Below, one piece after another: positions 248 to 64,000 of a DNA stretch of 64,000 bases (the first letter of the stretch is position 1; each line of letters starts with the position of its first letter). This stretch comes from Micromonospora sp. WMMD1128 (GTDB lineage Bacteria; Actinomycetota; Actinomycetes; Mycobacteriales; Micromonosporaceae). Position numbers and translations under genes: made by a program. The notes below the pieces were generated by a model. That model had not been told where the DNA came from. It saw nothing but the letters and a program-made list of their open reading frames with translations, and searched no databases. Where the stretch lies: assembly GCF_027497235.1 (NCBI RefSeq), contig NZ_CP114902.1, positions 3,423,501 to 3,487,500 on the forward strand. The letters are read 5' to 3'.

Positions 248-3711
<3,464 letters not shown>

Positions 3712-12749: not shown

Positions 12750-12822
12750 CCGTCGGCGGCGGGCATGCTCGCTGGCGCAGTGGGAAAGCGCCGGGCGCAC
12801 CGTAGGAGACGGGAGGCACCAC

Positions 12823-13002: not shown

Positions 13003-13052
13003 GCTGGTCGGAGGACCTGCCCGCAACCGTGAGCCGTCGGCCGGTACGGATG

Positions 13053-14018: not shown

Positions 14019-14031
14019 CCGTGCGAGCCTA

Positions 14032-14068
14032 CGCGGAACTCCCTGCCCGGGATGCGATGAGTTCCGCG
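14032..14068. promoter_or_regulatory. Inverted repeat in the divergent sigma/DHFR-like intergenic region
   Basis: CGCGGAACTC (14032-14041) and GAGTTCCGCG (14059-14068) are perfect 10-bp arms around a 17-bp centre. Each arm contains GGAAC, the usual ECF -35 core, so the site could be a target of the adjacent sigma factor or an operator. Confidence 0.5.
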
Positions 14069-14134
14069 CGTGGCGCCGGTATGTGCGGGTGAGGGCGGCC
14101 CGACCGGAGCCGCCACGACCGCAGGGAGCCTTCG

Positions 14135-14695
14135 ATGGGCGACGTCATCGTCATTCAGTTCGTCACGCTTGACGGCGTGGTCTCCGACCCCGACGGGCGC
14201 GGCGGGACCGACCACGGCGGCTGGGCGTTCCGGTACGGGCCGGAGGCGGTCGCCGGTGACAAGTTCCGCCTCGGGCAGCGGATGGAGCGCGGCGTCCAGC
14301 TCTACGGCCGGCGGACCTGGGAGCACTTCGCCGGGCTCTGGCCGAGCCGGGACGGGGACTACCCCCGGCTGATGAACGCCGTGCCGAAGCGGGTGGCGAC
14401 CCGCACCGGCATCGACGCGACCGCCTGGTCGAACTCGGCGGCGATCGACGGCGACCCGGTGGCCTGGGCCGTCGACGAGCGAACGCGCCGGGACGTGGTG
14501 GTGATCGGCAGCCTGAGCCTGGTGCGGGCGCTGGCCTGCGCCGACGTGGTCGACGAGTACCGGCTGATCACCTTCCCGACGGTCCTCGGCCGGGGTGACC
14601 GGCTCTTCGCCGACGGCCCGCCCGCCGACTTCCGGTTCACCGCGGCCGAACCGGTCGGCGCGGCCACCTTGACGGTCCTACGCCGCACCCGGTGA
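14135..14695 (+). CDS. Dihydrofolate-reductase-family protein (RibD C-terminal fold)
   Basis: 186 aa. IVIQFVTLDGVVSDPDG at the N-terminus and YGRRTWEHFAGLWPS, then VVVIGSLSLVRALACADVVDEYRLITFPTVLGRGDRLF, match the RibD_C/DHFR-like reductases widespread in actinomycetes (YwjB/YyaP type). They have the DHFR fold and bind NADPH but rarely reduce dihydrofolate. The RBS CAGGGAG lies before ATG 14135. It is divergent from the ECF sigma gene and could be part of its regulon. The substrate is unknown. Confidence 0.85.
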   Translation: MGDVIVIQFVTLDGVVSDPDGRGGTDHGGWAFRYGPEAVAGDKFRLGQRMERGVQLYGRRTWEHFAGLWPSRDGDYPRLMNAVPKRVATRTGIDATAWSNSAAIDGDPVAWAVDERTRRDVVVIGSLSLVRALACADVVDEYRLITFPTVLGRGDRLFADGPPADFRFTAAEPVGAATLTVLRRTR

Positions 14696-21992: not shown

Positions 21993-24993
<3,001 letters not shown>

Positions 24994-38822: not shown

Positions 38823-38958
38823 TTCTGACTCCCCCGTGTTCGGACGGATCGTAGTACGAGGTCCACTACAGGATCTGTCCCTCCAGCGGTACGTCAGGAG
38901 CGCTCTCCACACTCGTCAGCAGGCGGGCGGCAGCTCGCCGACACGGGAGGAGAACACA

Positions 38959-49363: not shown

Positions 49364-52156
49364 TCACAGCAGCGCGGCGATCCGATCCGCGTCCGGATGG
49401 TCGTTGGCGCGCAGGATGTTCAACGCCTCCCGCCAGGTCTGCCGCGCGGCCTCGGCCTCTCCGGCGGCCGCCAGGGCGGCCCCGAGCCGACGCAGGGTGA
49501 ATCCCTCGTTCATCCGGTCACCCAGGTCGCGGTAGCGGGCGATGGCCTGCCGGTAGCAGTCCACCGCCCGGTGCGCGTCCACGTTCCGGTAGGCGTGTCC
49601 GAGGGTGTCCCAGACGCTGGCCTCGCCCATCCGGTCGCCAGCCCGTTGGAGGCGGTCCAGCGCCCGCCTGCCGTACGCGGCGGCCCGCTCGTGGTCGCCG
49701 AGCTGGGCGAGGCACCAGGCGACCGAGTTCAGCGCGTAGCTCTCGCCACGGTCGTGGCCGGCCTGGCGGAACAGGGTCAGGGCCTGCTCGTCGTGCCGGA
49801 GCGCCTCGGCCAGCTCACCCTGCTCCTCGGCCAGCCAGCCCAGGCAGCGGTAGATGAACGCCTGGCCCACCCGGTCGCCGAGGTCGTGATAGAGCGAGAG
49901 GGCTTGCCGGTAGTCCGCCCGCGCGTCGTCGAACCGGCGTAGTTCGACGCATGAGCTGCCGTGCAGCCGGTGTGCCTCCGCCACGGTGGCCGGGTCGCCC
50001 AACCGACGCGCGACGGTCACCCCCGCGCGGCCGACCCGTTCCCAGTCGTGCCGGTGGCCCCGCCGGGGCAGGAAGTTGGCCATCGCCCAGGACAGCCGCC
50101 AGGCCGGCCTGTCGAGCCCGTCGGCGACGGCCTGCTCGATCGCCGCCAGCAGCCCGGCGTGCTCGGCGGTGAACCAGGCCAGCGCCGCCTGCCGGTCGGC
50201 GAAGCCGAGCACCGTGACGCCCGGCGCCGGCGGCGGCACCGGCAACGGGTCGCGGTTCGGCCACAGCAGCCGGTCGGCGCCGAGGGCGGTGTGCAGGTAG
50301 TGGTCGAGGAGGCGTCCCCACGCGGCGCGCCGCCCGGCGCTGCCGTCCGGCGGCCCCAGTTCGTCCGCGTAGGCCCGGAGCAGGTCGTGGCGGGCGTACC
50401 GGCCGGGCAGGTGTTCGGTGACGAGGTGCGCGGTGGCCAGCTCACGCAACGGCGACCGCACCTCGTCGACGTCCCGGCCGGCGAGACTGGCCAGGGCCTC
50501 GGCGCGCAGGTCCGGACCGGCCGGCAGGCCCAGCAGCCGGAACAGTCGGTCCGCCGCCTCGGTGAGGCCCCGACGCGACCAGGAGAGCACGCTCCGGACG
50601 TCCGTGCCCGTGTCGCCGTGGGCGAAGGCGTCGAGATCCGGTCCGCCCCGGTCCGCGCGCAGCTCGGCGGCGAGCGATCCGAGCGGGAACTCCGGGTGGA
50701 TGGCGGCCCGGGCCGCCGCGACCGCCAACGCCAGCGGAAGCCGGGCACACGAGTCGATGATCTCGTCCACCGCCGCGTCCTGACCGGCCAGGCGTTCGGC
50801 GCCCAACCGGCGCGCCAGGAACCGCCGCGCCTGCCCGCGGTCGAGCAGTTCGAGCCGGACCGGACGGGCTCCGTCGACGGCGACCAGGCCGGGCAGTTGG
50901 CTACGGCTGACCGCGATCACGGCGCAGCCCGGCACCCCCGGCACCAGTGGACGGGCTCGCCCGGCGTCGTCGATGTTGTCGAGCACCACCAGGACCCGCC
51001 GGTCGGCCAGCAGGGACCGGTAGAGCGCGGTCTGCGCCTCGACGGTCGCCGGGATCCGCGACGGCGGTACGGCGAGCGCATCCAGGAAGACCCGCGCCGC
51101 CTCGCCCGGTTCCATCGCCAGCCCGGTGGGGTCGAAGCCGCGCAGGTCGACGTAGAGCTGACCGTCCGGAAAGCCGGCGGCGACGAGGTGCGCCAGGCGC
51201 AGCGCGAAGAACGTCTTCCCCACCCCGGCCGGGCCCGAGACCAGCACCGTCACCGGTTGCCGGCGGGACCCGTCGAGCAGGCGACGGGCGGTGGCCAGTT
51301 CGTCGGCGCGGCCGACGAAGTGCGGCGGGTCGGGCGGCAGCAAGGACGGACGGGCCAGTTTCGGCTGGTGGGCGACCGCCGGTCCGACGGGCAGGCGGCG
51401 GTGCAGGATCTCCCGCTGCAACTCCGCCAGCTCCGGCGCCGCGAGGCCCCGTTCCCGCAGCAGGCGCAGCCCCTCCCGGCACACCTCGGCAGCCTCGTCG
51501 ACCCGGCTGTCGGCGTAGAGCGCCCGGGCGAGCAGGCGGCGTGCCGTCTCGTCGTAGGGGTCGTCGACGACCAGGCCGGTCAACCCGTCGATCGCCTCGG
51601 CCCACCGACCGAGCGCCGACAGGGCCTCGGCGTGCCCGCGTCGCGCCGTACGTCGGGCGGAGTCGAGCCGGGCGACGTGCGCCAGGGTGAAGGGACGGTC
51701 GGCCACCTCGGCGAACGCCGGGCCGCGCCACAGCGCCAACGCCTCCGTCAACAGGGCGACGGCCCGTTCGATCAGGTCGGACTCGTCGGCGGCCAGCAGC
51801 CGCCGCGCCTCGGCGCAGCGGCGCTGGAACCGGTCGGCGTCGACCGCGTCCGGCGGCAGGTCGAGCCGGTACGCCGACCCGGCGCCGAGGCCGGTGGTGA
51901 CCAGGATCGGCGGCTGTCGCGGGCCGGTCGCCGGGGCGAGCGCCCGCCGTAGGTGCGAGACGTGACTGCGGAGGGTGGCGCGAGCCGCCTCCGGCGCCGG
52001 GTCGCCCCAGAGCAACTCGACGATCCGGTCCGCCGGCACCGCGGACCCGGCCTCCACGAGCAGCACCGCCAGCAGTTCCACGAGTCGCGGACCCAGCCGG
52101 ACGGGCCGGCCGTCGTGCTCCACCCGGATCGGCCCGAGCACGTCGACCCGCAGCAA
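49364..52156 (-). CDS. AfsR/SARP-family transcriptional regulator (SARP + NB-ARC + TPR)
   Basis: 930 aa. Winged helix (~1-90: LRVDVLGPIRVEHDGRPVRL...ELLAVLLVEAGSAVPADRIVELLWGD), BTAD (~95-245), NB-ARC with P-loop VLVSGPAGVGKTFFALRLAHLV and DRRVLVVLDNIDDA, then TPR helices to the end (SLYHDLGDRVGQAFIYRCLGWLAEEQGEL). Unlike the gene at 35364-38822 it lacks an N-terminal XRE domain. It probably activates a biosynthetic or developmental gene set in response to an ATP-dependent switch; no target can be named. Start TTG 52156; a TATAGT -10 box (52202-52207) would give a 5' leader of about 40 nt. Confidence 0.92.
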   Translation of the reverse strand: MLRVDVLGPIRVEHDGRPVRLGPRLVELLAVLLVEAGSAVPADRIVELLWGDPAPEAARATLRSHVSHLRRALAPATGPRQPPILVTTGLGAGSAYRLDLPPDAVDADRFQRRCAEARRLLAADESDLIERAVALLTEALALWRGPAFAEVADRPFTLAHVARLDSARRTARRGHAEALSALGRWAEAIDGLTGLVVDDPYDETARRLLARALYADSRVDEAAEVCREGLRLLRERGLAAPELAELQREILHRRLPVGPAVAHQPKLARPSLLPPDPPHFVGRADELATARRLLDGSRRQPVTVLVSGPAGVGKTFFALRLAHLVAAGFPDGQLYVDLRGFDPTGLAMEPGEAARVFLDALAVPPSRIPATVEAQTALYRSLLADRRVLVVLDNIDDAGRARPLVPGVPGCAVIAVSRSQLPGLVAVDGARPVRLELLDRGQARRFLARRLGAERLAGQDAAVDEIIDSCARLPLALAVAAARAAIHPEFPLGSLAAELRADRGGPDLDAFAHGDTGTDVRSVLSWSRRGLTEAADRLFRLLGLPAGPDLRAEALASLAGRDVDEVRSPLRELATAHLVTEHLPGRYARHDLLRAYADELGPPDGSAGRRAAWGRLLDHYLHTALGADRLLWPNRDPLPVPPPAPGVTVLGFADRQAALAWFTAEHAGLLAAIEQAVADGLDRPAWRLSWAMANFLPRRGHRHDWERVGRAGVTVARRLGDPATVAEAHRLHGSSCVELRRFDDARADYRQALSLYHDLGDRVGQAFIYRCLGWLAEEQGELAEALRHDEQALTLFRQAGHDRGESYALNSVAWCLAQLGDHERAAAYGRRALDRLQRAGDRMGEASVWDTLGHAYRNVDAHRAVDCYRQAIARYRDLGDRMNEGFTLRRLGAALAAAGEAEAARQTWREALNILRANDHPDADRIAALL

Positions 52157-52242: not shown

Positions 52243-53340
52243 TCACCAGGGGCGCGTGCTCACGTAGACGTTGCCGCCGCCGAACGTGACCGGATCGCTC
52301 GCGCAGCCACCGAGGTTCGCGTTCTTCGCGTCGTCGTGGCCCCACAACCGGACCCGGACCGGGTCGATGCCCCCCTGCGGATCCTCGTTCCACGCGTCCC
52401 CGTTGTAGGACGTGTCACCCACTTTGTTGTTCTTGAACACGTTACCCACGCCGCAGTCCTCGCTGTCGAAGCGCCAGTCGCTCATGATGGCGTACGCGCC
52501 GGCCCGCCAGAACATGTTCCCGTCGGCGACGTTGTACTTGCTGTTGTGGCGGGTCCGGATCGGATCGCCGGTGACGTAGCCGAACCGGTTCCCGGCGATG
52601 GTGCTCGAATTGCTGTAGTTGGCGAGGTAGACCCCGTGAATGGCGGCCGGGCTGTCGTCGTTGGCAAGGTAGTAGAAGCGGTTTCCCTCGATCCGGGTGC
52701 CGGTCGAGTTCGTCACGTGGACACCGCCGTAGCCCGTGCCCGTACCGTTGGCGTTGTAGTGGTCCCCCAGGTATTGGAACGTGTTTCCCCGGATGACGAT
52801 GTCGCCGGCCCGGTCCCCCGGCTTCCCGGCGACCCGGATGCCCCCGTTGCGGAAGTACTGGAACGTGTAGCCCTCCACCACCACGCCGCTGTCGGCGGAC
52901 GTCAGCGTCATGCCGTAGCCGGCTGCGGCCGTGCCGACGTCGTCCCCCGTGGCCGACGTCGGCACGGCCGCCGACCGCATCCGCGATCCGTCGAGCACCA
53001 CCGCGCCGGTGCCCGGGATGGTCGAGAAGGTCACCCTGCCGCCGCGCGGGGCGTAACTCCACCGGATCGGGGAGGTGAGATGGTGGACGCCGCCCCGCAG
53101 CAGGACCCGGGCGTCGCGCGCACCTCGGGCCCGCAGGACCGACTCGGCCGCGGCCACCGAACCCACCGCCCGTTCGGGGGCGCTTCCGTCCCGCTGCTGA
53201 CCACCGTGGAGGGCGGCCGGCCCGGTCGGGTCCACGTAGACGGTCACCGGGCCCTCCGGCGCGGCCTGGGCCGCACCTCCGGGCAGAGCGGTCGCGGTCG
53301 CGACCGCCAACGCCATCGACCAGGCACGGATTCTGCGCAT
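52243..53340 (-). CDS. Secreted right-handed beta-helix protein
   Basis: 365 aa. Signal peptide AWSMALAVATATALPGGAAQA, then VTVYVDPTGPAALHGGQQRDGSAPERAVGSVAAAESVLR as the helix entry and rungs such as GVVVEGYTFQYFRNGGIRVAG, DIVIRGNTFQYLG, RIEGNRFYYLAN and TIAGNRFGYVTG. It is a pectate-lyase-like fold with no recognisable catalytic set and no lectin domain. It is a smaller relative of the 22294-24993 protein and is likely to act on extracellular polysaccharide. ATG 53340 follows AAGGAA. It is divergent from the encapsulin-cluster operon and is probably not part of it. Confidence 0.82.
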   Translation of the reverse strand: MRRIRAWSMALAVATATALPGGAAQAAPEGPVTVYVDPTGPAALHGGQQRDGSAPERAVGSVAAAESVLRARGARDARVLLRGGVHHLTSPIRWSYAPRGGRVTFSTIPGTGAVVLDGSRMRSAAVPTSATGDDVGTAAAGYGMTLTSADSGVVVEGYTFQYFRNGGIRVAGKPGDRAGDIVIRGNTFQYLGDHYNANGTGTGYGGVHVTNSTGTRIEGNRFYYLANDDSPAAIHGVYLANYSNSSTIAGNRFGYVTGDPIRTRHNSKYNVADGNMFWRAGAYAIMSDWRFDSEDCGVGNVFKNNKVGDTSYNGDAWNEDPQGGIDPVRVRLWGHDDAKNANLGGCASDPVTFGGGNVYVSTRPW

Positions 53341-53778
53341 GAGTCATTCCTTCCGTCCGACTGATGCCGACCTCGACAGATTGGAGGCGGGGTGTGGAAA
53401 CGGCGTGGAAGGTCCCACTCCGCCGGCCGGGTAGGCGAGGTGCGGCGGCGCGGCCGGGCCACCACGGGCGGTTCATCCTCGCGGGTGGACCGCGGTGGGC
53501 CCGACGCCCGCCACGAGGGGCAATTCCCTATTGTCCACTGTCACTGTGAGCGACGCCTGTGCGAATTCCCGATCGCATGTTGACGGCCGGAGATCGAAAG
53601 GCAATCATGATGGTCACTGGATCCACCTCACGCCAATGTCGGATCCGGTGGCTTCTCCCACTTGACGACGGGATCGCGCCGTAATGCGAGATTCCGCCGG
53701 GCGAGCACGCCCGGCGCGCACCGGCAAAAACCCATCGATCGAATAGGACATGCCGCCGCTCGCCCGAGGAGTCCGCCG
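53341..53778. promoter_or_regulatory. Divergent control region of the encapsulin cluster
   Basis: About 440 bp with no supported gene, including the most AT-rich bases in this part of the window (around 53540-53620). Main signal: CACTGGATCC (53615-53624) and GGATCCGGTG (53641-53650), an imperfect 10-bp dyad (9 of 10 paired). It is a candidate operator for the operon that starts at 53779. No riboswitch or leader peptide was found. Confidence 0.45.
53615..53650. promoter_or_regulatory. Candidate operator dyad upstream of the encapsulin cluster
   Basis: CACTGGATCC and GGATCCGGTG, arms 10 bp, centre 16 bp, one mismatch. Located 129 bp upstream of the first gene. Confidence 0.45.
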
Positions 53779-55095
53779 GTGAAGGGGAACGACGACGCTC
53801 TCGCGCCGAGCCGGCCAAGGCCGGTCTCGTGCGGCGCTGAGCTGCAAGAACAGCTCGCGCTGCACGGCGGTCGGCCGGTCCGGCGCACGCCGTGGCCCAC
53901 CTACGACAAAGGCGCGGTATTCGTACATCCCGAGGACGAGGAGGCCGCAATTCGGGCCATCCGTAGTCATCTCTACTTCCGCTACGACCACCGGCCGCAG
54001 AACGAAACCGAATGCGGTCGCTTCGAGGACGAACTGTGCCGTTATTTCGGCACCCGGCACGCTCTCGCCGTTTCCAGCGGCACGGCCGCGCTGGCTCTCG
54101 CCCTGATGGGCGCCGCCGTGCCGGCGGGGTCATTGGTCGCCTGCCCCGGATTCACTTTCGTCGCCACTCCGAGCGCCATTATGATGGCCGGCTGCCGACC
54201 ATTCCTGGTCGAGGTCGACGACGACCTGCGGATGGACCTCGACGACCTGCGCCGACGGTGGCGGCCGGACATCCGCGCCATCGCGGTGGTGCACATGCGG
54301 GGGTTCGCCGCCGACGTCGAGGCGCTCGCCGCGTTCGCCGCCGAGATGGGCGTGCCGCTGATCGAGGACACCGTGCCGGCGCTCGGGGCCGAACTCAACG
54401 GCCGCAAGCTCGGCACGTTCGGCGCGGCCGGCGCGTTCAGCACCCAGTCCGACAAGGCGCTCAACTGCGGTGAGGGCGGCTTCCTGCTGACCGACGACAG
54501 CACCCTGTTCGCCCGGGCGGTCGCGCTCTCCGGGGCGTACGAGGGGCGGCTGCGCCGGCACTTCACGCACGGCGAGCCGTCCGTGAGCGGCCTGGACCTG
54601 CCGCTGCTCAGCCTGCGGATGGACGAGATCCGGGCAGCTCTGCTGCGGGCCGAGCTGACCCGGCTGCCGCAGCGGCTGGGGTTGTTCCACCGCAACTACG
54701 CCCACGTCGCCGCGGCCCTGGCCGACCTTCCCGGCATCGCCGTACGACGACCGGTCGCGCCCGGGGCGTACCTCGGGGAGGCGTTCGTGTTCCGCGTGCC
54801 CGGCGGCGACGCGGGCTGGTTCACGCGGGCGCTGCGGGCCGAGGGGATCGACGCCCGCAACATCGGCGCGGACGACGACCTCAACGTCCGCGCGTTCTGG
54901 AACTGGCGCTTCCTCTACGACGACACGGCGGACCCGGCGCGGATCCGCGCGACCCTGCCGCGCACCGCGCGGCTGCTCACCGAGACCGTCGACGTGCCGC
55001 TGTCGTCGAACCTCACCCCGGACGACTGCGACGACCTGGTCCGCGCGGTCCGCAAGGTGGCCGCCGCCCGCGACCCCGCGCTGGCGCGGCCGTGA
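53779..55095 (+). CDS. DegT/DnrJ/EryC1/StrS-type PLP aminotransferase
   Basis: 438 aa, first gene of the operon. TRHALAVSSGTAALALALMGAAVPAGSLVACPGFTFVATPSAIMMAG is the sugar-aminotransferase signature; VHMRGFAADVEALAAFAAEMGVPLIEDTVPALGAEL supplies the PLP-ring Asp region and GAFSTQSDKALNCGEGG the Schiff-base Lys. Such enzymes put an amino group on keto-sugars or cyclitols in antibiotic pathways. The GTG at 53779 with GAGGAG upstream gives the usual N-terminus (LALHGGRPVRRTPWP); the reading frame continues further upstream without coding character. The stop overlaps the transporter start. Confidence 0.9.
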   Translation: MKGNDDALAPSRPRPVSCGAELQEQLALHGGRPVRRTPWPTYDKGAVFVHPEDEEAAIRAIRSHLYFRYDHRPQNETECGRFEDELCRYFGTRHALAVSSGTAALALALMGAAVPAGSLVACPGFTFVATPSAIMMAGCRPFLVEVDDDLRMDLDDLRRRWRPDIRAIAVVHMRGFAADVEALAAFAAEMGVPLIEDTVPALGAELNGRKLGTFGAAGAFSTQSDKALNCGEGGFLLTDDSTLFARAVALSGAYEGRLRRHFTHGEPSVSGLDLPLLSLRMDEIRAALLRAELTRLPQRLGLFHRNYAHVAAALADLPGIAVRRPVAPGAYLGEAFVFRVPGGDAGWFTRALRAEGIDARNIGADDDLNVRAFWNWRFLYDDTADPARIRATLPRTARLLTETVDVPLSSNLTPDDCDDLVRAVRKVAAARDPALARP

Positions 55096-56273
55096 GCGGC
55101 GCGGACGCCGAGCCGAAGCGCCTGCCCCGGCTCGCGCTGGTCGGGCTGCTCGGCGGGCTGTTCGCCGGCTACCTGGGGTTGACCGCCGTCATCCCGGTGC
55201 TGCCCGGCTTCCTGCGGGAGCGGCACGACGCCGGTGACCTCACCGTCGGCGTCGTGGTCACCGTGACCGCGGTGACCGCGCTGCTGGTCCGGCCGGTCGC
55301 CGGCGCGCTCGCCGACCGGTACGGCCATCGCACGGTGATGCTGACCGGCGCGCTCGTGGTGGCCGCCGGTGGCCTGCTGTACCTGGCGCCGCTGAGCGTG
55401 CCCGCGCTGGTGGCGGTGCGGCTGCTGCTCGGGGCGGGCGAGGCGGCGCTGTTCACCGCCGGCGCGGTGTGGATCGTCCAGCTCGCCCCGCACCACCGGC
55501 GCGGCCAGCTCATCGGCCTGTACGGGGTGAGCATGTGGGGCGGCATCTCCGCCGGCACGTTCCTCGGCGCGACCGTGCAGCAGGCCGGATACCCGGCGGT
55601 GTGGGCGCTCAGCGCCGCCGCCCCGGCCGTCGGGGCCGCGCTCGTCGCGGTGGCGCCGACGCCACCCCGCGCCGCCCCGGCGGCCCGGGGTGGTGGACTG
55701 CTGCTGCGCCCCGCACTGCTGCCCGGCGTGGCGCTGACGTTCGGCGCCGCCGGGTACGCCGGGCTGGCCGCGTTCGTGGTGCTGCACCTGGACGAGCGGG
55801 GCATCGGCCACGGGGTGGTGGTGCTGAGCTGCTTCAGCGCCGTCTACGCCGGCACCCGGCTCGTCATCGGTCACCTGCCCGACCGGCTCGGCCCCCGCCG
55901 GGTGGCCACCTGGTGCGGGGTGGGCGAGGCGGTCGGGCTGCTGGTCATCGCGGTCGCCCCGAACCTGCCGGTCGCGGTGGCCGGCAGCGTGGTGATGGGC
56001 GTCGGGTTCTCGCTGCTGCACCCGTCGCTGGCGTTGATGGTGATGAACCGCACCGACCCGGCGCGGCAGGGCGCGGCGATCGGGGCGTACACCTCGTTCT
56101 GGGATCTTGGGCTGGCGGTGTGGGGGCCGGCGACCGGTCTGGTCGCCGCCGGGTTCGGCTACCCGGCGGTGTTCGTGGCCGGCGCGGCCGGCGCGGCGGT
56201 CGCCGCCGCGATGGCGCTGCGCATCGGCCGCCCCGCCGCCGACCGGGTGCCGATGGAGGTACGGACGTCATGA
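55092..56273 (+). CDS. MFS exporter
   Basis: 393 aa, 12 hydrophobic segments. The conserved loop after TM2 reads VRPVAGALADRYGHRTVML and the second-half counterpart VIGHLPDRLGPRRVATW, both typical of MFS_1 drug/metabolite exporters. GTG 55092 overlaps the aminotransferase stop (GTGA) and its stop overlaps the sulfotransferase start (ATGA), so the three are translationally coupled. It probably exports the product of this cluster. Confidence 0.9.
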   Translation: MSGADAEPKRLPRLALVGLLGGLFAGYLGLTAVIPVLPGFLRERHDAGDLTVGVVVTVTAVTALLVRPVAGALADRYGHRTVMLTGALVVAAGGLLYLAPLSVPALVAVRLLLGAGEAALFTAGAVWIVQLAPHHRRGQLIGLYGVSMWGGISAGTFLGATVQQAGYPAVWALSAAAPAVGAALVAVAPTPPRAAPAARGGGLLLRPALLPGVALTFGAAGYAGLAAFVVLHLDERGIGHGVVVLSCFSAVYAGTRLVIGHLPDRLGPRRVATWCGVGEAVGLLVIAVAPNLPVAVAGSVVMGVGFSLLHPSLALMVMNRTDPARQGAAIGAYTSFWDLGLAVWGPATGLVAAGFGYPAVFVAGAAGAAVAAAMALRIGRPAADRVPMEVRTS

Positions 56274-57235
56274 GCGCACCCGTGACCGTGCTCAGCGTCA
56301 CCGGCTGGTGTCGCAACGGCAGCACCATCATCGGCAACGTCCTCGGCGAGGTACCCGGCGTGGTGCACGTCGGCGAACTGCACTTCCTGTGGAAGAACGC
56401 CACCGGTCGCGGGGTCAACGACAGGTGCGGCTGCGGACTGCCGCTGACCGACTGCCCGCTGTGGTCGGCGGTGCTGCCGGTCGGCCGTCCGGCCGGCGTG
56501 TCCGCGGACGCACACGCCGCCGAGGTGATCCGGCGCCAGCGCGCCCGGCTGCGGACCCGGCACACCTGGCGGGTGCTGCGCCGGGGCGCGGACGACGCGG
56601 CCACCCGCACGCACGCCGAGCTGCTCGGCGCGGTCTACCGGGAGGTGGCCGCGCGCACCGACGCCCGGGTGATCGTGGACAGCACCAAGATCCCCGGCGA
56701 GTCGGCGTTGCTGCCGCACGTGCCCGGCGTCGAGCCGTACTGGCTGCACCTGGTCCGTGACCCGCGCGCGGTGGCGCACTCCTGGCGGGAGCCGAAGGAC
56801 TACGTCTACGCCATGTCTGCGGCGCGCAGCACCGCGTACTGGCACGGGTTCAACCGGGCCTCGGCCGCGATCAACCGCCGGCACCCGGGGCGGTCGGCGT
56901 TCCTGCGTTACGAGGACTTCGCCGCCGACCCGGCCGGCAGCATCGGCACCCTGCTGCGGCTGGTCGGCGTCGACCCGGCCGGCAACCCGGTCCGGGACCG
57001 GACCGTCGAGCTGCGCGGCAACCACACGGTGACCGGCAACCCGGACCGGTTCCGCACCGGTCCGACGATCGTCCGGGACACGGACGACGGGTGGCGGCGC
57101 ACGCTCACCGGCCGGCAGCGCCTCGCCGTGGCGGCGCTGGCGTGGCCGCTGTCCGCCCGCTACGGCTACCGGTCCGGCGCGCCGGTCGGCGCGCACCCCG
57201 GCGCGGCGGTCCGCGCCGGTGAGACGGAGAGGTGA
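56270..57235 (+). CDS. Sulfotransferase (PAPS-dependent)
   Basis: 321 aa. 5'-phosphosulfate loop VTGWCRNGSTIIGNVLGEVPG and 3'-phosphate strand YWLHLVRDPRAVAHSWREPKD are both present; a Cys-rich NDRCGCGLPLTDCPLW follows the loop. It probably transfers sulfate to a hydroxyl of the small molecule made here. Sulfotransferases recur in published descriptions of encapsulin-containing natural-product clusters. ATG 56270 follows GGAGG and overlaps the MFS stop. Not closely related to the gene at 25091-26047. Confidence 0.9.
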   Translation: MSAPVTVLSVTGWCRNGSTIIGNVLGEVPGVVHVGELHFLWKNATGRGVNDRCGCGLPLTDCPLWSAVLPVGRPAGVSADAHAAEVIRRQRARLRTRHTWRVLRRGADDAATRTHAELLGAVYREVAARTDARVIVDSTKIPGESALLPHVPGVEPYWLHLVRDPRAVAHSWREPKDYVYAMSAARSTAYWHGFNRASAAINRRHPGRSAFLRYEDFAADPAGSIGTLLRLVGVDPAGNPVRDRTVELRGNHTVTGNPDRFRTGPTIVRDTDDGWRRTLTGRQRLAVAALAWPLSARYGYRSGAPVGAHPGAAVRAGETER

Positions 57236-58071
57236 CGGACGTGGATCTGGGGCTCACGGGTCGGGTGGCGCTTGTCGCCGGCGGCACCAGCGGCATCGGG
57301 CTGGCCTGCGCGAAGGAATTCGCCGCGGAGGGCGCGCACGTGGCGGTCTGCGGGCGCGACCCGCAGCGCCTCGCCGCGGCCGAGCGGGAGCTGGCCGCGG
57401 TGACCACCGGGCGGGTCAGCGCCACCGGCGTGGACGTCACCGACACCGACGCCGCCGCGCGCTGGGTCGACCGGGTCGCCGCCGACCTCGGCGGGGTGGA
57501 CGTGCTGCTGGTCAGCGGCGGCAGCCCGCCGTTCGGCACCGCCACCGCCTTCGCCACCGACGACTACCGGGCGGCCGTCGACCAGGTGCTGCTGCCCGCG
57601 GTCGCGCTGTCGCTGGCCGCGCTGCCGCACATGCGCGCCGCCGGGCGGGGCCGGCTGCTGCTCGTCGCCTCCGAGACCGCCTGCGTGCCGATCGGCCCGC
57701 TGGCGCTGTCCGGGGTGACCCGGGCCGCGCTTGTCCGCTTCGCCCAGGGGCTCGCGGTGGACGTGGGCCGCGACGGGATCACCGTGAACGTGCTCGCGCC
57801 CGGCGGGGTGCGTACCCCGCCGATGGAACGCGTGGCGGCCCGGCTGGCCGGCGACGACGGCGACGTGGAGACCCGGCTGGCCGCGATGGGCCACCACAGC
57901 GCGCTCGGCCGGCTGGCCCGCCCCGAGGAGGTGGCCGCGGTGGCCGCGTTCCTGGCGGGCGAACGGGCGTCGTACGTGACCGCCGGCGTGCACCTGATCG
58001 ACGGCGGCGCCGCCGCCACCGGCCCCGACCTGCCGCACCTGACCGGGATCCGCAAGGACACCTACGCCTGA
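57232..58071 (+). CDS. Short-chain dehydrogenase/reductase with altered catalytic residues
   Basis: 279 aa. The Rossmann glycine motif RVALVAGGTSGIGLACAKEFAAEG and the VDVLLVSGGSPP segment (NNAG equivalent) fit NAD(P)-dependent SDRs, with C-terminal LIDGGAAAT. The catalytic segment reads LLVASETACVPIGPLALSGVTRAALVRF: the normal Tyr-x-x-x-Lys is Ser-x-x-x-Arg by my alignment, so classical hydride-transfer chemistry is doubtful, as in a known SDR subgroup that keeps the fold. GTG 57232 overlaps the sulfotransferase stop; a GTG at 57241 is an alternative. Confidence 0.85.
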   Translation: MTDVDLGLTGRVALVAGGTSGIGLACAKEFAAEGAHVAVCGRDPQRLAAAERELAAVTTGRVSATGVDVTDTDAAARWVDRVAADLGGVDVLLVSGGSPPFGTATAFATDDYRAAVDQVLLPAVALSLAALPHMRAAGRGRLLLVASETACVPIGPLALSGVTRAALVRFAQGLAVDVGRDGITVNVLAPGGVRTPPMERVAARLAGDDGDVETRLAAMGHHSALGRLARPEEVAAVAAFLAGERASYVTAGVHLIDGGAAATGPDLPHLTGIRKDTYA

Positions 58072-58098
58072 GTCCGCCCGACCGCACAGGGGAGTCCG

Positions 58099-58938
58099 AT
58101 GTCCACGACCAGCCAGTTCACCGAGCGCGACGTCTCCGAGTTCTTCGACCAGACCACGCGGACGTACCTCAGCTTCTGGGACAGCGAGGGCGTGCTGCAC
58201 ACCGGCTACTTCGCCGCCGACGCCGACGCCGACTACCACGCGGCGGCCGACCGGACCTCGGACATCCTCGCCGAGGACGCCGGCATCGACGCGTCGTCGC
58301 ACGTGCTCGACGTCGGCTGCGGCTGCGGCAACTTCCTGCTGCGGCTGGCCGGACGCACCGGGTGCCGGGGCGAGGGGGTGGACCTGAGCACCGAGCGGGT
58401 CCGGTTCGCCGAACAGCGACGCGCCGAGCGCGGCGCCGGGCTGGACGTGTCGTTCCGGCACGGCTCGGCCACCGCCCTGCCGTACGCCGACGACACGTTC
58501 ACGCACGTGGTCAGCCAGGATGCGCTGTTCCTGGTGCCGGAGAAGCCACGCAGCCACGCCGAGATGTTCCGGGTGCTCGCCCCCGGCGGGGTGCTTGCCG
58601 TCTCCGACTTCCTCCAGCCCACCGAGCGGATCGGCGAGGCGGCCCGGCGGCACGTCTACGACCGGGTGCGCTGGAACGGCGGCTACTCGCTCGACGGCTA
58701 CCGCCGGGCGTTGACCGAGGCCGGGTTCGTGGACGTGGTGGCCCGCAGCCTCGACGCGCACATCCGGCAGACGTACCGGGTGCTGGGCCGCACCGCCCGG
58801 GAGCGTGCGGAGACGACGGCGGACGAGGCGGCGCGGACCTGGATCCTCGGCTTCGCCGAATCCTGCGACGAGATCCAGGCGGCCATCGACCGGGGCGAGT
58901 TCGGCTGGGGCATGTTCGTCGCCCGCAAGCCGGCCTGA
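58099..58938 (+). CDS. Class I SAM methyltransferase (UbiE/sarcosine-type)
   Basis: 279 aa. SEFFDQTTRTYLSFWDSEGVLHTGYF opens it, as in small-molecule N/C/O-methyltransferases of natural-product pathways; motif I SHVLDVGCGCGNFLLRLAGR, motif IV FTHVVSQDALFLVPEK and motif V LAPGGVLAVSDFLQP are complete. The end (ESCDEIQAAIDRGEFGWGMFVARKPA) resembles sarcosine/glycine-type enzymes. ATG 58099 follows AGGGGAG. It lies 27 bp after the SDR and 14 bp before the encapsulin-like gene, in the same operon. Confidence 0.9.
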   Translation: MSTTSQFTERDVSEFFDQTTRTYLSFWDSEGVLHTGYFAADADADYHAAADRTSDILAEDAGIDASSHVLDVGCGCGNFLLRLAGRTGCRGEGVDLSTERVRFAEQRRAERGAGLDVSFRHGSATALPYADDTFTHVVSQDALFLVPEKPRSHAEMFRVLAPGGVLAVSDFLQPTERIGEAARRHVYDRVRWNGGYSLDGYRRALTEAGFVDVVARSLDAHIRQTYRVLGRTARERAETTADEAARTWILGFAESCDEIQAAIDRGEFGWGMFVARKPA

Positions 58939-58952
58939 GGAAGGGACAGCAG

Positions 58953-59831
58953 ATGCCACAACCCATGGAGACCGTGAAGCGGACCATCGCCGAGGTGGTC
59001 GCCGCGCGGAAGACCCAGATGTCGCCGGGCGGACTGTTCGTCGAGGCGTTCGCCAAGGACGGCTTCGACACCAGCGTCGACTACGACGTCACCGTCACCG
59101 ACTCGCTGACCAGCTCCCGGCGCAAGCCGCGCTACCCGTCCCGGAACGTGCTGAAGGTGGTGGACCTGTCCCGGGATCCGCAGGACTTCTACTGGCACGA
59201 GAGCCCACCCCGGCCGGACGACCCGGCGGTCGACGGCGCGGACCTGCGCCGGGAGGCCGCCAACCACTTCCACCGCTCCCCCATCCCGCCGCTGCTCACC
59301 ACCACCGCGTGGGTGCAGGTGCCGGACACGCTGTGGGAGGACCCGGTCAGCTTCGCCCAGTTCATCGACTACCGGCTGGTGGTGCGGCTGGCCACCGCCG
59401 AGAACCACACCATCCTGCGCGGCGAGGGCGGGCTGCTGGCCATGCCGGACCTGGGCCGGCTCACCGAACCGGGGCCATTCGGCTCGACCATCCTGTCCGC
59501 CTGCAACGAGGTGGAGCAGATGGGCAGCACCGCGGACGGGCTGATCATCAACCCGGCCGACTACTACCGGCTGCTCGGCAACGGCACGCTGATGCGCGAC
59601 GTGGAGGAGAACGGCGTCTTCATCGTGCGTACCCGCCTGGTCGACCCGGGCACCGCGATCGTCGGCGACTTCGGCCACGGCGCGCTGCTGTTCGACGCCG
59701 GCCGCTCCACGATCGGGTTCGCCGAGCCACCGCCGGGCACGTTCGCCGAACCGGGAGTGGCGTTGCGCGCCGAGATCTGGGAGCGGGTCGTGGTCAACCT
59801 GCCCACCTGCTTCTTCGTCGTCACGCTCTGA
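58953..59831 (+). CDS. HK97-fold encapsulin-like shell protein (natural-product encapsulin type)
   Basis: 292 aa. The C-terminal two thirds follow the HK97 major-capsid fold: a helix before MGSTADGLIINPADYYRLLGNG (the 'adgiimnP.dw..l' segment), then AIVGDFGHGALLFDAGRSTIGFAEPPPGTF (P-domain and hairpin) and the closing VALRAEIWERVVVNLPTCFFVVTL. The N-terminal ~90 residues (TIAEVVAARKTQMSPGGLFVEAFAKDGFD...DLSRDPQDFYW) are divergent, and no head-maturation protease, portal, terminase or other phage gene is nearby. The context is a biosynthetic operon, which is the setting of the class described as Family 3 or natural-product encapsulins. Such a shell could enclose one or more of the neighbouring enzymes, but no cargo-loading peptide was identified. 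RBS GGAAGGG precedes ATG 58953. Confidence 0.78.
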   Translation: MPQPMETVKRTIAEVVAARKTQMSPGGLFVEAFAKDGFDTSVDYDVTVTDSLTSSRRKPRYPSRNVLKVVDLSRDPQDFYWHESPPRPDDPAVDGADLRREAANHFHRSPIPPLLTTTAWVQVPDTLWEDPVSFAQFIDYRLVVRLATAENHTILRGEGGLLAMPDLGRLTEPGPFGSTILSACNEVEQMGSTADGLIINPADYYRLLGNGTLMRDVEENGVFIVRTRLVDPGTAIVGDFGHGALLFDAGRSTIGFAEPPPGTFAEPGVALRAEIWERVVVNLPTCFFVVTL

Positions 59832-59843
59832 CCGGCGGCGACG

Positions 59844-61124
59844 ATGACGACACCGGCCCGCAGCGACCCCGACGTGCTGGTCATCGGCGCCGGCGTGGTC
59901 GGGCTGTGCTGCGCCTGGTTCCTGCGCCGCGCCGGCCTCACCGTGACCGTGGTGGACCGGGTTGAGGTCGGCGACCCGTCGGCCTGCTCGGCCGGGAACA
60001 CCGGCTTCGTCGGCACCCAGGGCTCGGCGCCGCTGGCCGAGCCCGGGGTGCCGACGAAGGGCGTCCGCTGGCTGTTCAGCCCGGAGAGCCCGTTCTCGGT
60101 CAAGCCCCGCCTCGACGGCGCGCTGCTGACCTGGTTGTGGCACTTCCGCCGGCACTGCACCGAACGGCACGCCCGCGCCGGCTTCGAGACGCTGCTCGCG
60201 CTCAAGCAACGCAGCCTGGCGCTGCTGCGCCAGATCTGCGCCGAGGGCGAGCTGACCGGCACGCTCACCGCCCGCGGCATGATCCTGGCCTGCCACACCG
60301 AGCAGGGGTACGCGCAGGCGCGCCGGACGATCCCGGCGGCGACCGCGCGTGGGGTGCCGCTGCGTGAGCTGGACGCCGCGGAGCTGGCCGAGTTGGAACC
60401 GGGCGTCGACTTCGCCGTGGCCGGCGCGCTGTTCAACGAGGAGGGCGCCGCGCTGCGCATCCCCGCGTTCCTGGTCGGCCTCGCCGAGGAGCTGCGGGCG
60501 CGCGGCGTGGAGATCCTCACCGGCGCCGAGGTACGCGACTTCGAGGTGACCGGCCGGCGGGTGCGTGCGGTCCGGACCGGCCGGGGCGACCTGCGCCCGA
60601 CCGAGGTGGTGATCGCCGCCGGGGTGTGGTCGGCGGCGTGCGCCCGGATGCTCGGCGTCGGGCTGACCCTGCAACCGGCGAAGGGCTACACGGTCACCGT
60701 GCCGGCCGGGCCGGGCACGCCCACCCGGCCGGTGCTGCTCAGCGAGGGCAAGGTCGCGGTGATGCCGCTCGGTGACCGGGTCCGCGTCGGCGGCACGCTG
60801 GAACTGTCCGGGCTGGACGCCTCGGTGTCGCCGCGCCGGGTGGACGGGATCCTGCACACCGCCCGGCGCTACCTGCCGGCGCTGGAGACCGACCGGCGGC
60901 TCGACGTGTGGAGCGGACTGCGCCCGTGCACCCCGGACAGCCTGCCGCTGATCGGCCGGGCCGGCGGTTGGGGAAACGTCAGCGTGGCGACCGGGCACGG
61001 GCACATCGGGATGGGCCTGGCCCCGGCCGGCGGGGAACTGCTCGCCCAACTCGTGACCGGTGCCGAGCCGGCCGTGCCCCTGGAGACGTTCGCCCTGGAC
61101 CGCTTCCGGAAGGGGATCTCGTGA
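59844..61124 (+). CDS. FAD-dependent oxidoreductase (DadA/DAO-like)
   Basis: 426 aa. VLVIGAGVVGLCCAWFLRRAGLTVTVVDR is the FAD-binding GxGxxG motif, followed by ACSAGNTGFVG, EVVIAAGVWSAACARMLG, and a C-terminal GLRPCTPDSLPLIGRAGGWGNVSVATGHGHIGMGLAPAGG (DAO family end). The overall order is that of D-amino-acid dehydrogenase (DadA), which oxidises D-amino acids or related amines to imino/keto acids. In a cluster that starts with an aminotransferase it may set the amine oxidation state. Its stop overlaps the next gene start (GTGA). Confidence 0.9.
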   Translation: MTTPARSDPDVLVIGAGVVGLCCAWFLRRAGLTVTVVDRVEVGDPSACSAGNTGFVGTQGSAPLAEPGVPTKGVRWLFSPESPFSVKPRLDGALLTWLWHFRRHCTERHARAGFETLLALKQRSLALLRQICAEGELTGTLTARGMILACHTEQGYAQARRTIPAATARGVPLRELDAAELAELEPGVDFAVAGALFNEEGAALRIPAFLVGLAEELRARGVEILTGAEVRDFEVTGRRVRAVRTGRGDLRPTEVVIAAGVWSAACARMLGVGLTLQPAKGYTVTVPAGPGTPTRPVLLSEGKVAVMPLGDRVRVGGTLELSGLDASVSPRRVDGILHTARRYLPALETDRRLDVWSGLRPCTPDSLPLIGRAGGWGNVSVATGHGHIGMGLAPAGGELLAQLVTGAEPAVPLETFALDRFRKGIS

Positions 61125-61822
61125 GTGACCGGCCGGAGATCGGGGTGCTCTGCCTCGACACCAGCTTCGACAAGATCCCCGGGCACATCCGCAACCCGGC
61201 GACGTTCGACTTCCCGGTGCGTTACCGGGTGGTCGAAGGCGCCACCCCGCAGCGGCTGGTACGCGAGGCCGACCCGACGCTGCTGGAGCCGTTCGTCGCC
61301 GCGGCCCGCGACCTTCAGGCCGCCGGGGTGGCCGGCATCACCGGCGCGTGCGGCTTCCTGGTGCTGTTCCAGGCCGAACTCGCCGCCGCGGTGGACGTGC
61401 CGCTGTGGTCGTCGAGCCTGGTGCAGGTGCCGATGGTGCACCTGATGGTCGGGCGCACCGTGGGGCTGCTGGTCGCCGACGAGGCGGCGCTCACCCCCCG
61501 GCACCTGGCCGCGGTCGGCGCGGCGGACGTGCCGGTCGCGGTCACCGGGATGGCCGGGCAGCCCGAGTTCCGCGAGGTGATGCTCCAGGGGCGGCGCGAC
61601 GCGCTCGACGTCGACCGGCTGGCCGCCGAGGTGGACGGCCGGGCGGACGCGCTCGCCCGCGCCCACCCCGACCTGGGCGCGCTGGTGATCGAATGCACCG
61701 ACCTGGTGCCGTTCGCCCACCGGATCCAGGCGCGGCTCGGCGTGCCGGTGTTCGACATCGTCACGCTGACCACGATGGCCCACGCGACGCTCACCCGCCG
61801 CCCCTACGCCGGGAGCCGGTGA
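61121..61822 (+). CDS. Asp/Glu/hydantoin racemase superfamily protein
   Basis: 233 aa. Two active-site cysteines are spaced as in the family: AGITGACGFLVLFQ (first half) and ALVIECTDLVPFAHR (second half), each on a strand followed by a helix, in a two-domain pseudosymmetric fold. Members racemise amino acids, hydantoins or maleate derivatives, or decarboxylate arylmalonates. GTG 61121 overlaps the oxidoreductase stop and follows GGAAGGGG. As the last gene of the operon, it fits a pathway that uses both amino-acid enantiomers. Confidence 0.85.
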   Translation: MSDRPEIGVLCLDTSFDKIPGHIRNPATFDFPVRYRVVEGATPQRLVREADPTLLEPFVAAARDLQAAGVAGITGACGFLVLFQAELAAAVDVPLWSSSLVQVPMVHLMVGRTVGLLVADEAALTPRHLAAVGAADVPVAVTGMAGQPEFREVMLQGRRDALDVDRLAAEVDGRADALARAHPDLGALVIECTDLVPFAHRIQARLGVPVFDIVTLTTMAHATLTRRPYAGSR

Positions 61823-61923
61823 CCGGCCGGAAGACGGAAACGCGCACCCTGCCTCCGGGTGGCACATACCGTGGGCAGGAGGGCAGCCGGGCAGGGAGGC
61901 GGCCGGGACCGGAGGGGGACGCC

Positions 61924-62094
61924 GTGACGGAGCCGGAAGAGGAGCAGGAGAAGACCGGCAAGACCGACCGGGTGCTGTTCTCCCCCGACGGCGACCCGCA
62001 CCACACGCTGGCGGAGGCCCCGCAGCCGGACGAGCACCTCGACGTCACCGCCACCGTCGACGACCGGACCGAGGTCGTCGACGACGAGCAGTGA
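61924..62094 (+). CDS. Small acidic hypothetical protein
   Basis: 56 aa, very acidic: EPEEEQEKTGKTDRVLFSPD, HHTLAEAPQPDEHLD, TATVDDRTEVVDDEQ. Probably disordered. The GTG at 61924 follows GGAGGG. It has its own promoter-like TACCGT at 61867-61872, 101 bp after the racemase, so it may not belong to the cluster. No known function. Confidence 0.55.
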   Translation: MTEPEEEQEKTGKTDRVLFSPDGDPHHTLAEAPQPDEHLDVTATVDDRTEVVDDEQ

Positions 62095-62112
62095 GCCGGG
62101 GCCGGGCCGCGC

Positions 62113-62373
62113 TCAGACCGGTGGGATGCCGGAGCGGCCGATGGCCGACATGTCGCCGCCGCCGATCTCACTGGGCGCGGCCGGCGGTGGGGCCGTGGCC
62201 TCGGTGCGGTCCTCGATGCAGGCGTCACCGAGCCCGTGCATCAACTCCCCGATGGCGGCCAGCGCCGACCCCTTGTCCGGGCAGGGCCGGCCGGTGGCGA
62301 GCACCTGGCCGTCGCCGCCGAGCACGGTGAACCCGACCCGGCCGTCGGTCTCGCTCTCGATGACGAACCTCAC
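62113..62373 (-). CDS. DUF1508 (YegP-like) protein
   Basis: 86 aa from GTG 62373, which follows GGAGG. RFVIESETDGRVGFTVLGGDGQVLATGRPCPDKGSALAAIGELMHG gives the two-stranded DUF1508 repeat (one copy). Function unknown; it is often near stress or osmoprotection genes. It lies directly downstream of the amidotransferase gene (17-bp gap), so the two may be co-transcribed. Confidence 0.78.
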   Translation of the reverse strand: MRFVIESETDGRVGFTVLGGDGQVLATGRPCPDKGSALAAIGELMHGLGDACIEDRTEATAPPPAAPSEIGGGDMSAIGRSGIPPV

Positions 62374-62390: not shown

Positions 62391-64000
62391 TCAGACGCCG
62401 TGGGTCTGCAACCACAGCTCCAGCAGGCCCAGCTGCCACAGTTTGTTGCTGCCGGCGGCGGCCTGCGCCCGGTCCGGCTCGGCGAGCAGCTCGTCGACGT
62501 ACGCCCGGCGGAACAGGCCGCGCCGCCGTGCCTCGGGCGCGCCGAGGGCCTCGACCACCAACTCTCGCACGGGACCGTCGACGTTGCGCAGCGCCGGCAC
62601 CGGGAAGTAACCCTTGGGCCGGTCGATGACCTCGGCCGGCAGCACCTCGCGGGCCACCTCCTTGAGCACCCCCTTGCCGCCCTGGGCCAGCTTGTGCTCC
62701 GGTGGGCAGGCGGCGGCGAGCGTCACCAGGTCCTGGTCGAGGAAGGGCGTCCGCACCTCCAGCCCCCAGGCCATGCTCATGCTGTCGACCCGCTTGACCG
62801 GGTCGTCGGGGAGCATCAGGTGGGTGTCCAAGCGCAGCACCGCGTCCACCGCGGTCTGCGCGCCGGGCGCAGCCAGCTCCGCGGCGACCAGCTCGCCGCT
62901 GACGTCGGCGTCGCAGGCGTACGCCGGGTCGACCACCCGGTTCAGCCCGGCGTGGTCGCGGTCGAAGAACGCGGCGGTGAACTCGGCGGCGGCGTCCGGC
63001 CGGGCCGCCTCGGCGAGTCGGTGGTGGTAGCCGTAGCCGGCGAAGACCTCGTCGGCGCCCTGGCCGGACTGGGCCACCTTCACGTGCCGGGCCACCTGCT
63101 CGGAGAGCAGGTGGAACGCCACCACGTCGTGGCTGCCCATCGGTTCGGTCATCGCCGTCACGGTGGCCCGGACGGCGGGGCCGAGGTCGCCGTCGGCGAG
63201 GCGGATGCGGTGGTGGTCGGTGTCGAAGGCGCGGGCGACCAGGTCGGAGTAGTGGAACTCGTCGCCGGCCTCGTCGCCGCGGCTGTCGAAGCCGATGCTG
63301 AACGTCTGGAGGTGGTGCTGCCCGGCGCCGTCGAGCAACGCCACGATCATGCTGGAGTCGAGGCCGCCGGAGAGCAGCACCCCGACCGGCACGTCGGCGA
63401 CCAGCCGCCGCCGTACCGCGGTGCGCAGCGCGCCCCCGATCGCGGCCCGCCAGTCGCGGGCGTCCATCCCGTCGTGGGCCGGGTCGCGCCGGTAGTCGGG
63501 CCGCCAGTAGACGTGCTCGCGGGCGCGGCCGTCGGCCTCCACCACCCGGACGGTGGCCGGGGGCAGCTTGCGTACGCCGCGCAGGATGGTGCGCGGGGCC
63601 GGCACGATCGAGTGCCAGGACAGGTAGTGGTGCAGCGCGACCGGGTCGATGCCGGTGTCCACGTCGCCGGCGGCCAGCAGCGCCGGCAGGGTGGAGGCGA
63701 ACCGCAGCCGGCCGGGTGACTCGGCGAGGTAGAGCGGCTTGACGCCGAGCCGGTCGCGGGCCAGCACGAGCCGGCGTCGCCGTCGGTCCACGAGCGCGAC
63801 GGCGAACATGCCGACCAGGTGGTCGACGAACCGTTCACCCCACTGGGCGTACGCGACCAGGACGACCTCGGTGTCACTCGTCGATCGGAACGTGTGCCCG
63901 GCCGCCCGCAGCTCGTCGCGCAGCTCCGGATAGTTGTAGACGCAACCGTTGAAGACCAGGGCGAGGCCGAGGTCGTCGCGGACCATGGGCTGGGCACCGG
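62391..64000 (-). CDS. Asparagine-synthase-like amidotransferase (N-acetylglutaminylglutamine type), 5' end outside window
   Basis: 536 residues visible, lacking only the ~65-residue N-terminus with the nucleophile Cys (MCG...). The glutaminase part shows GAQPMVRDDLGLALVFNGCVYNYPELRDEL and TSDTEVVLVAYAQWGERFVDHLVGMFAVAL. The synthetase part shows the PPi loop VGVLLSGGLDSSMIVALL, VAQSGQGADEVFAGYGYHHRL and RVDSMSMAWGLEVRTPFLDQDLVTLA. The VFNGCVYNYPELR and SGQGADEVFAGY wording is characteristic of N-acetylglutaminylglutamine amide (NAGGN) synthases, which make an osmoprotective dipeptide, rather than general AsnB. A partner synthetase gene would be expected beyond the window. It runs toward the encapsulin cluster, on the opposite strand, and is probably unrelated to it. 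Confidence 0.85.
   Translation of the reverse strand, partial: GAQPMVRDDLGLALVFNGCVYNYPELRDELRAAGHTFRSTSDTEVVLVAYAQWGERFVDHLVGMFAVALVDRRRRRLVLARDRLGVKPLYLAESPGRLRFASTLPALLAAGDVDTGIDPVALHHYLSWHSIVPAPRTILRGVRKLPPATVRVVEADGRAREHVYWRPDYRRDPAHDGMDARDWRAAIGGALRTAVRRRLVADVPVGVLLSGGLDSSMIVALLDGAGQHHLQTFSIGFDSRGDEAGDEFHYSDLVARAFDTDHHRIRLADGDLGPAVRATVTAMTEPMGSHDVVAFHLLSEQVARHVKVAQSGQGADEVFAGYGYHHRLAEAARPDAAAEFTAAFFDRDHAGLNRVVDPAYACDADVSGELVAAELAAPGAQTAVDAVLRLDTHLMLPDDPVKRVDSMSMAWGLEVRTPFLDQDLVTLAAACPPEHKLAQGGKGVLKEVAREVLPAEVIDRPKGYFPVPALRNVDGPVRELVVEALGAPEARRRGLFRRAYVDELLAEPDRAQAAAGSNKLWQLGLLELWLQTHGV

Follow-up and report, generated by a model that had tools for sequence, protein, structure and literature searches.

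A probable family 3 encapsulin operon of one defined class, with a predicted short sulfation pathway, in Micromonospora

Family 1 and Family 2 encapsulins form closed shells. A third group, the Family 3 or 'natural product' encapsulins, was described in 2021 by Andreas and Giessen, together with the pairs of sulfotransferase and short-chain dehydrogenase (SDR) genes that accompany it (PMC8346489). The passages of that paper considered here distinguish six Family 3 classes, propose that SDR and sulfotransferase give sulfated hydroxyls while aldehyde or ketone intermediates are retained within the shell, and state that, at the time of writing, experimental work covered a single Family 3 cluster (the chloromyxamide cluster of Myxococcus), that the role of its shell was unknown and that Family 3 lacked a solved structure. 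Among the matches listed in the open-licence literature we found, going by titles and the openings of abstracts, neither a later experimental study of Family 3 nor any work joining encapsulins to aziridine chemistry. Here we analyse a stretch of 64,000 nucleotides from Micromonospora sp. WMMD1128 (contig NZ_CP114902.1, positions 3,423,501 to 3,487,500; hereafter the window), from a genome that consists of one contig of 6.81 Mb. Eight genes of the window (53779-61822, + strand) form an operon that includes a virus-derived shell gene, ENC. We hold, with moderate confidence, that this is a family 3 encapsulin operon of one defined class, in which the shell stands beside a short sulfation pathway.

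The operon resembles the Family 3 systems of PMC8346489, as far as the passages considered describe them, in shell family, biosynthetic context, sulfotransferase and SDR pair, and actinobacterial host; it differs in that none of its eight genes encodes a nonribosomal peptide synthetase, a polyketide synthase or a carrier protein. The chloromyxamide cluster likewise combines a Family 3 shell with an amino-acid-type product, such as is suggested for the window, but it makes peptides with chlorinated pipecolic acid, whereas Pfam recognises no peptide-forming enzyme among the eight genes. An earlier note, made from the letters of the window, had seen in the operon a candidate undescribed type of pathway. 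That claim falls, because Family 3 encapsulins with sulfotransferase and SDR were described in 2021 (PMC8346489, in the same passages) and an NCBIfam equivalog model for them exists. What is new relative to those passages is the operon class found here (class A, below) as one clade, with shell and racemase-like protein co-occurring. The broader idea of the note, an encapsulin-type shell within a real biosynthetic operon with an exporter, is borne out by the shell model, by conserved synteny and by the presence of the exporter in most loci of the class.

Evidence for an encapsulin begins with the shell protein itself (ENC, 58953-59831, 292 amino acids). It scores 314.9 bits against NF041188.2, the NCBIfam equivalog model for family 3 encapsulins (cut-off 180), and structure prediction returns the HK97 fold that the earlier note had suspected. 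The best structural and distant sequence matches are HK97-type phage capsids (PF05065), and several Family 1 and Family 2 encapsulins appear as solved shells among the structural matches. The match to the Phage_capsid family is nonetheless below threshold (19.8 vs 24.2 bits); it is the only Pfam match at E ≤ 0.1, where neither Linocin_M18 nor SrpI-like, the families of Family 1 and 2, was found. A genome-wide search for SrpI was empty, though its controls gave no signal either. ENC had no match in PHROGs at E 0.1 and no close sequence relative in the copy of the PDB that was searched; its nearest named relatives come from Micromonospora. Compared with four congeners, ENC has a ratio of nonsynonymous to synonymous substitution rates (dN/dS) of 0.17-0.34, and its dN is the lowest or equal-lowest in the operon in the four comparisons.

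These data bear on the possibility that ENC is the capsid gene of a decayed prophage, stranded in an unrelated operon. The weak, sub-cut-off Phage_capsid match is what one would cite for it. Set against this are purifying selection, synteny across genera and in a metagenome-assembled genome (MAG) of Chloroflexi, the lack of a PHROGs match, and the neighbours: among the larger genes flanking the operon (the scope of this comparison, small open reading frames being left out), namely those for a beta-helix protein and an AfsR-type regulator upstream and an asparagine synthase downstream, no phage-like gene was found with Pfam, in agreement with the earlier note. We reject a prophage remnant and consider its probability negligible. 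Model score, predicted HK97 fold, biosynthetic context and non-phage large neighbours together support the assignment of ENC as a family 3 encapsulin. Assembly is a separate question, since ENC could also act as an open scaffold or oligomer that organises the enzymes without enclosing them. The failure to find a tag common to all members favours such an arrangement; retention of the HK97 core, the low dN of ENC and the closed shells of its Family 1 and Family 2 relatives argue the other way, and we think an open scaffold quite improbable.

The operon itself is as the earlier note described it, in coordinates, direction and gene families. Its order is AT-MFS-ST-SDR-MT-ENC-DAO-RAC, all on the + strand: a pyridoxal phosphate (PLP) aminotransferase of the DegT/DnrJ/EryC1/StrS type (AT, 53779-55095, 438 amino acids; Pfam); an exporter of the major facilitator superfamily (MFS, 55092-56273, 393 amino acids; Pfam and NCBIfam); a sulfotransferase of the type that uses 3'-phosphoadenosine 5'-phosphosulfate (PAPS) (ST, 56270-57235, 321 amino acids; Sulfotransfer_3, 31.4 against a cut-off of 27); the SDR, of the Rossmann short-chain dehydrogenase family (57232-58071, 279 amino acids; Pfam, alignments and structure model); a methyltransferase dependent on S-adenosylmethionine (MT, 58099-58938, 279 amino acids; Pfam, with NCBIfam matches below cut-off); ENC; a flavin adenine dinucleotide (FAD) enzyme of the D-amino-acid dehydrogenase/glycine oxidase group (DAO, 59844-61124, 426 amino acids; Pfam, with scores for the NCBIfam models of that group under their cut-offs); and a protein of the Asp/Glu/hydantoin racemase superfamily that retains two cysteines (RAC, 61121-61822, 233 amino acids; NCBIfam). 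The computed junctions comprise four overlaps of 4 bp (AT/MFS, MFS/ST, ST/SDR and DAO/RAC) and positive gaps of 12-27 bp (SDR/MT +27, MT/ENC +14, ENC/DAO +12). Since different genera share the gene order and the catalytic residues, and dN/dS lies below 0.6 for all eight genes (window against the four congeners), the operon is not a product of chance. The gene set and its conservation are established, as are the family of the shell and its predicted fold; catalytic residues are intact except in the SDR.

For comparison with relatives, 27 named loci and 30 further ones were gathered, four of which (L054-L057) are sub-cut-off matches to NF041188; these carry no operon gene and are presumed to be phage capsids. 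Loci with duplicate shells (L050, L052, L062, L065, L067) were removed before counting, as were the short loci L028-L037, seven of whose places were replaced at full length (all save L029, L031 and L032). L003 was excluded from the counts of gene order and sulfotransferase because the overlap filter had removed its shell, though all eight genes are present. Shells over the cut-off occur in 24 of 200 genomes of the family and in 9 of 394 genomes of the class (window genome counted in both); four of the 24 (G016, G051, G125, G156) are without a full-length locus in the counts.

By gene content the loci fall into four classes, A-D, which are defined here and not mapped onto the six classes of PMC8346489. 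Class A (32 rows) is that of the window operon, AT-MFS-ST-SDR-(MT)-ENC-DAO-RAC, and is the only one of the four in which RAC is found. Class B (L038, L039, L040, L045, L064) combines an A-T-reductase protein, an aldo-keto reductase, a Sulfotransfer_5 protein, ENC and, in four of the five loci, an MFS gene; it would amount to a Family 3 shell joined to a highly compact pathway for an alcohol sulfate. Class C (L041, L042, L044, L058, L059, L061) has ENC-ST-SDR with LysX/Y/Z-like, M20 peptidase, transketolase and AMP-binding genes, and class D (five loci) has AT, ENC, ST-SDR and an AMP-binding gene. The labels in classes B and C come from Pfam matches of representatives and, elsewhere, from similarity to these. 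On a tree of 49 shells, window included, class A shells form a single clade (support 100/99), as do those of class B (98/89), while classes C and D show two changes each; over all class labels there are 4 changes, compared with a mean of 15.4 when labels are shuffled.

Within class A, all eight genes stand in the order of the window in 20 of 32 loci (window included), and synteny is kept across genera. The departures are of several kinds. Four loci are incomplete on cut contigs (L006, L018, L026, L027), L026 also being without DAO; MT is missing from six (L016, L020, L021, L022, L024, L063); MFS is not in its place in L013; and in L025, the Chloroflexi MAG, AT is displaced downstream and inverted. 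The shell of this MAG, for which mis-binning is possible, lacks about 10 residues present in the other 22 rows of the alignment. Among 151 genomes of the genus, class A orthologues of ENC (85-100% identity) and of RAC (83-100%) occur in the identical 21, on one contig and about 2 kb apart; because the two share the same genomes, an operon devoid of its shell was not seen among the 151. Outside these 21, a further 17 genomes have a shell at 27-46% identity, and one further RAC relative, at 38% identity, is found in G687. None of the outcomes that would have spoken against the earlier note (a fold other than HK97, a prophage family free of biosynthetic genes, a shell missing from otherwise conserved operons) appeared.

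The gene most constantly associated with the shell is the sulfotransferase, which lies within 10.5 kb of it in 47 of 48 loci, the sole exception (L026) being a contig that starts at the MT gene; comparison with relatives suggests that the chemistry turns on the addition of sulfate. A pathway may be sketched as follows. ENC would most likely form an icosahedral compartment; AT would aminate a small oxidised substrate, the SDR would alter the carbon neighbouring the amine, and ST would sulfate a hydroxyl. MT would methylate in most but not all lineages, DAO (as a flavin dehydrogenase) and RAC (as a racemase-like enzyme) would act on the amino end, and MFS would export the product. The order of steps, the cargo and the product are what we infer; as cargo the best guess is the SDR, which would enter by way of the conserved tail at its C-terminus, and the likeliest purpose of the shell would be to hold a reactive intermediate, either a carbonyl or imine or an activated amino sulfate.

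The published Family 3 hypothesis (PMC8346489, in the passages considered) sees sulfate as the final decoration: the SDR makes a hydroxyl, ST sulfates it, the sulfated amine is exported and the shell holds an aldehyde or ketone. In keeping with it, ST and SDR adjoin in the window operon and in classes C and D, and 29 of the 32 class A loci have an MFS gene. The SDR, however, does not look like a classical carbonyl reductase. It keeps Ser147, but Ser160 and Arg164 stand at the positions of the classical Tyr and Lys; the Ser-Tyr-Lys set of ketoreductases is therefore lacking. Ser/Ser/Arg is found in 40 of 40 SDR loci (window included) and the SxxxR pattern in 120 of 120 SDR homologues among the matches listed, which are mutual relatives and not independent cases. 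In a structure search with the SDR model (predicted local distance difference test score, pLDDT, 89.8) the best folds, which are tied, include AerF and L-sorbose reductase. Of the solved structures, L-sorbose reductase (3ai3) keeps Tyr/Lys, unlike the window SDR, whereas 2z1n (APE0912) aligns with Ser/Arg as in the window. Because the Tyr/Lys pair is absent, formation of the hydroxyl by classical carbonyl reduction is doubtful, and a routine ketoreductase reading of the SDR is, judging from the alignments, weakened. We regard sulfate as final decoration as possible, with less than even chances.

For the reading we prefer, a shell beside a short sulfation pathway, the SDR offers the best candidate for a cargo tag. 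Class A SDRs bear a C-terminal tail of about 20 residues (in the window residues 260-279, codons 58009-58068, + strand) with the motif GPxLPHLTxxRKDTY. Past the last DGG, class A SDRs run on for 16-24 residues and those of classes C and D (11 loci) for 3-6; the chains of 3ai3 and 2z1n end 2-3 residues beyond the aligned core and that of AerF (6jhb) about 10, whereas the window SDR continues for about 16-19. With L003 counted, LP[HY] occurs in the tail in 24 of 29 class A loci, whereas the tail motif was found in none of the 11 loci of classes C and D. Among the 120 listed homologues the tail is nearly as conserved as the core (0.79 vs 0.83), and it is of equal length in 115. Model confidence drops along it (block means 72 and 58), a pattern that would fit a free tag or a subunit contact alike. 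The tail is a class-specific candidate. One group of five loci (L016, L020, L021, L022, L063), four from Nocardia and one from a genome that trees alongside, has no MT and a diverged SDR tail; loss of MT and divergence of the tail are not strictly linked, since L024 is without MT and yet retains the tail.

In the remaining enzymes, the PLP lysine, the racemase cysteines and the PAPS-site residues that were checked are invariant in class A alignments: Lys226 and Asp197 of AT in 24 of 24 sequences, Cys77 and Cys192 of RAC in 28 of 28, and Arg15, Ser18 and Arg163 of ST, which we take to be the PAPS-site residues, in 27 of 27. Among solved structures AT is closest to 8-amino-octulosonate transaminase and deoxy-scyllo-inosose aminotransferase, MT to a glucose O-methyltransferase, and DAO to glycine and sarcosine oxidases; ST gave a weak match, and for RAC no solved relative was found at E 0.01. 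MT also resembles sarcosine/dimethylglycine N-methyltransferases and sugar O-methyltransferases (under the NCBIfam cut-off), and RAC scores 273.3 against NF005679 (cut-off 231) while falling just under the Pfam cut-off (28.5 vs 31). Such relatives would suit an amino polyol or an amino acid as substrate.

Several points weigh against the pathway sketched above. Closed assembly, cargo and product are inferred. MT, MFS, the position of AT and DAO each vary in some loci, and a complete eight-step pathway is therefore not universal. The SDR tail is diverged in the Nocardia group (five of the 29 class A loci) and could be a subunit contact; as a family-wide tag it was rejected, there being no counterpart in two sister classes with the same SDR (C and D), whose SDRs end 3-6 residues after DGG. 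A second candidate, an N-terminal extension of AT of about 34 residues ahead of the core (53779-53880; pattern xGNxxAPAPxRPxP, conserved in Micromonospora), was rejected as a universal cargo tag: it is absent in L017, L023 and L025, and in class D four loci of five carry no more than a short leader.

The sister classes raise a further possibility, by analogy with azinomycin and vazabitide. AziU3/U2 and Vzb10/11 are the sulfate-eliminating aziridine synthases of these two pathways. The sulfate could be a leaving group, displaced by a neighbouring amine to give an aziridine-like electrophile that the shell confines until export. According to the passages of PMC9570651 considered here, in the azinomycin route a neighbouring amine displaces sulfate to form the aziridine, the vazabitide route uses a carrier protein, and the azabicycle involves carboxyl phosphorylation, the reductase for it, transketolase, aminotransferase and sulfation; those passages mention no encapsulin. 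Aminotransferase and sulfation logic are common to these pathways and the window, but the carrier-protein and transketolase genes occur in class C and not in the window. In class C, ENC-ST-SDR is joined to LysX/LysY/LysZ-like, M20 peptidase and transketolase genes, and all six genomes have a match to a LysW-like carrier protein no more than 10 kb from the shell, two of the matches being above the curated cut-off (LysW matches also occur in 4 of 14 controls). Beside the class C shell cluster of L044, one gene with a PAPS_reduct domain and one of the GTP_EFTU type adjoin (12032-14190, + strand) as a CysD/CysN-like pair, whose sulfate activation seems dedicated to that cluster. The class B gene set would turn an acid into an alcohol sulfate; with an amino acid as the starting point, the outcome would be an amino-alcohol sulfate. 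The one known Family 3 product has a chloromethyl beside a ring nitrogen (PMC8346489, in the passages considered), which opening of an aziridine-like ring by chloride could give.

For the window itself the leaving-group idea holds only by analogy, because LysW has no match in the genome and no match to a LysX/Y/Z-type or transketolase gene was found within 10 kb in the window region. Nor was an aziridine-forming enzyme identified (sequences of the AziU3/Vzb10 type were not used as queries), and the reaction of the SDR is not assigned. A sulfate that leaves is, in our view, an unlikely account of this operon. Equally tentative is its extension to the whole family, by which Family 3 encapsulins would be containers for making electrophiles: a sulfotransferase would accompany the shell in all four classes found here because the sulfate would leave, displaced by an adjacent amine, the aziridine-like alkylator would be kept from the cytoplasm, and the window operon would be a small version free of carrier protein and megasynthase.

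As to the surroundings, a weak sigma-70-like promoter match (TTGACG, 17 nt, AATCAT; 53580-53608, + strand) lies about 170 bp 5' of AT; it is a consensus match only, and when 53340-62140 was shuffled the mean number of such matches was 0.2, against the one found here. The right-handed beta-helix protein directly upstream of the operon is encoded at 52243-53340 (- strand) and the asparagine-synthase family amidotransferase downstream at 62391-63986 (- strand). An AfsR/SARP-like regulator (BTAD, ATPase, TPR; 49364-52156, - strand), about 1.6 kb away, could regulate the operon; a second large one with the same domains lies at 35364-38912 (- strand). One protein (22294-24993, + strand) combines a ricin-type lectin domain with a GH141 insertion domain, and an A-PCP-KS hybrid (AMP-binding, PP-binding, ketoacyl-synthase; 244-3735, - strand) suggests that another biosynthetic locus may sit at the left end of the window.

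The operon belongs to a known family and to a specific class within it, and its value is that of a small, tractable system: with eight genes, no megasynthase and a place in named Micromonospora strains, it is about the simplest setting in which the role of a Family 3 shell could be settled. Three features are open to test, namely the constant presence of a sulfotransferase, the Ser/Arg pair of the SDR and the class-specific tail of that enzyme. Should the sulfate prove to be a leaving group, the shell would shield the cytoplasm of the producer from an alkylator.

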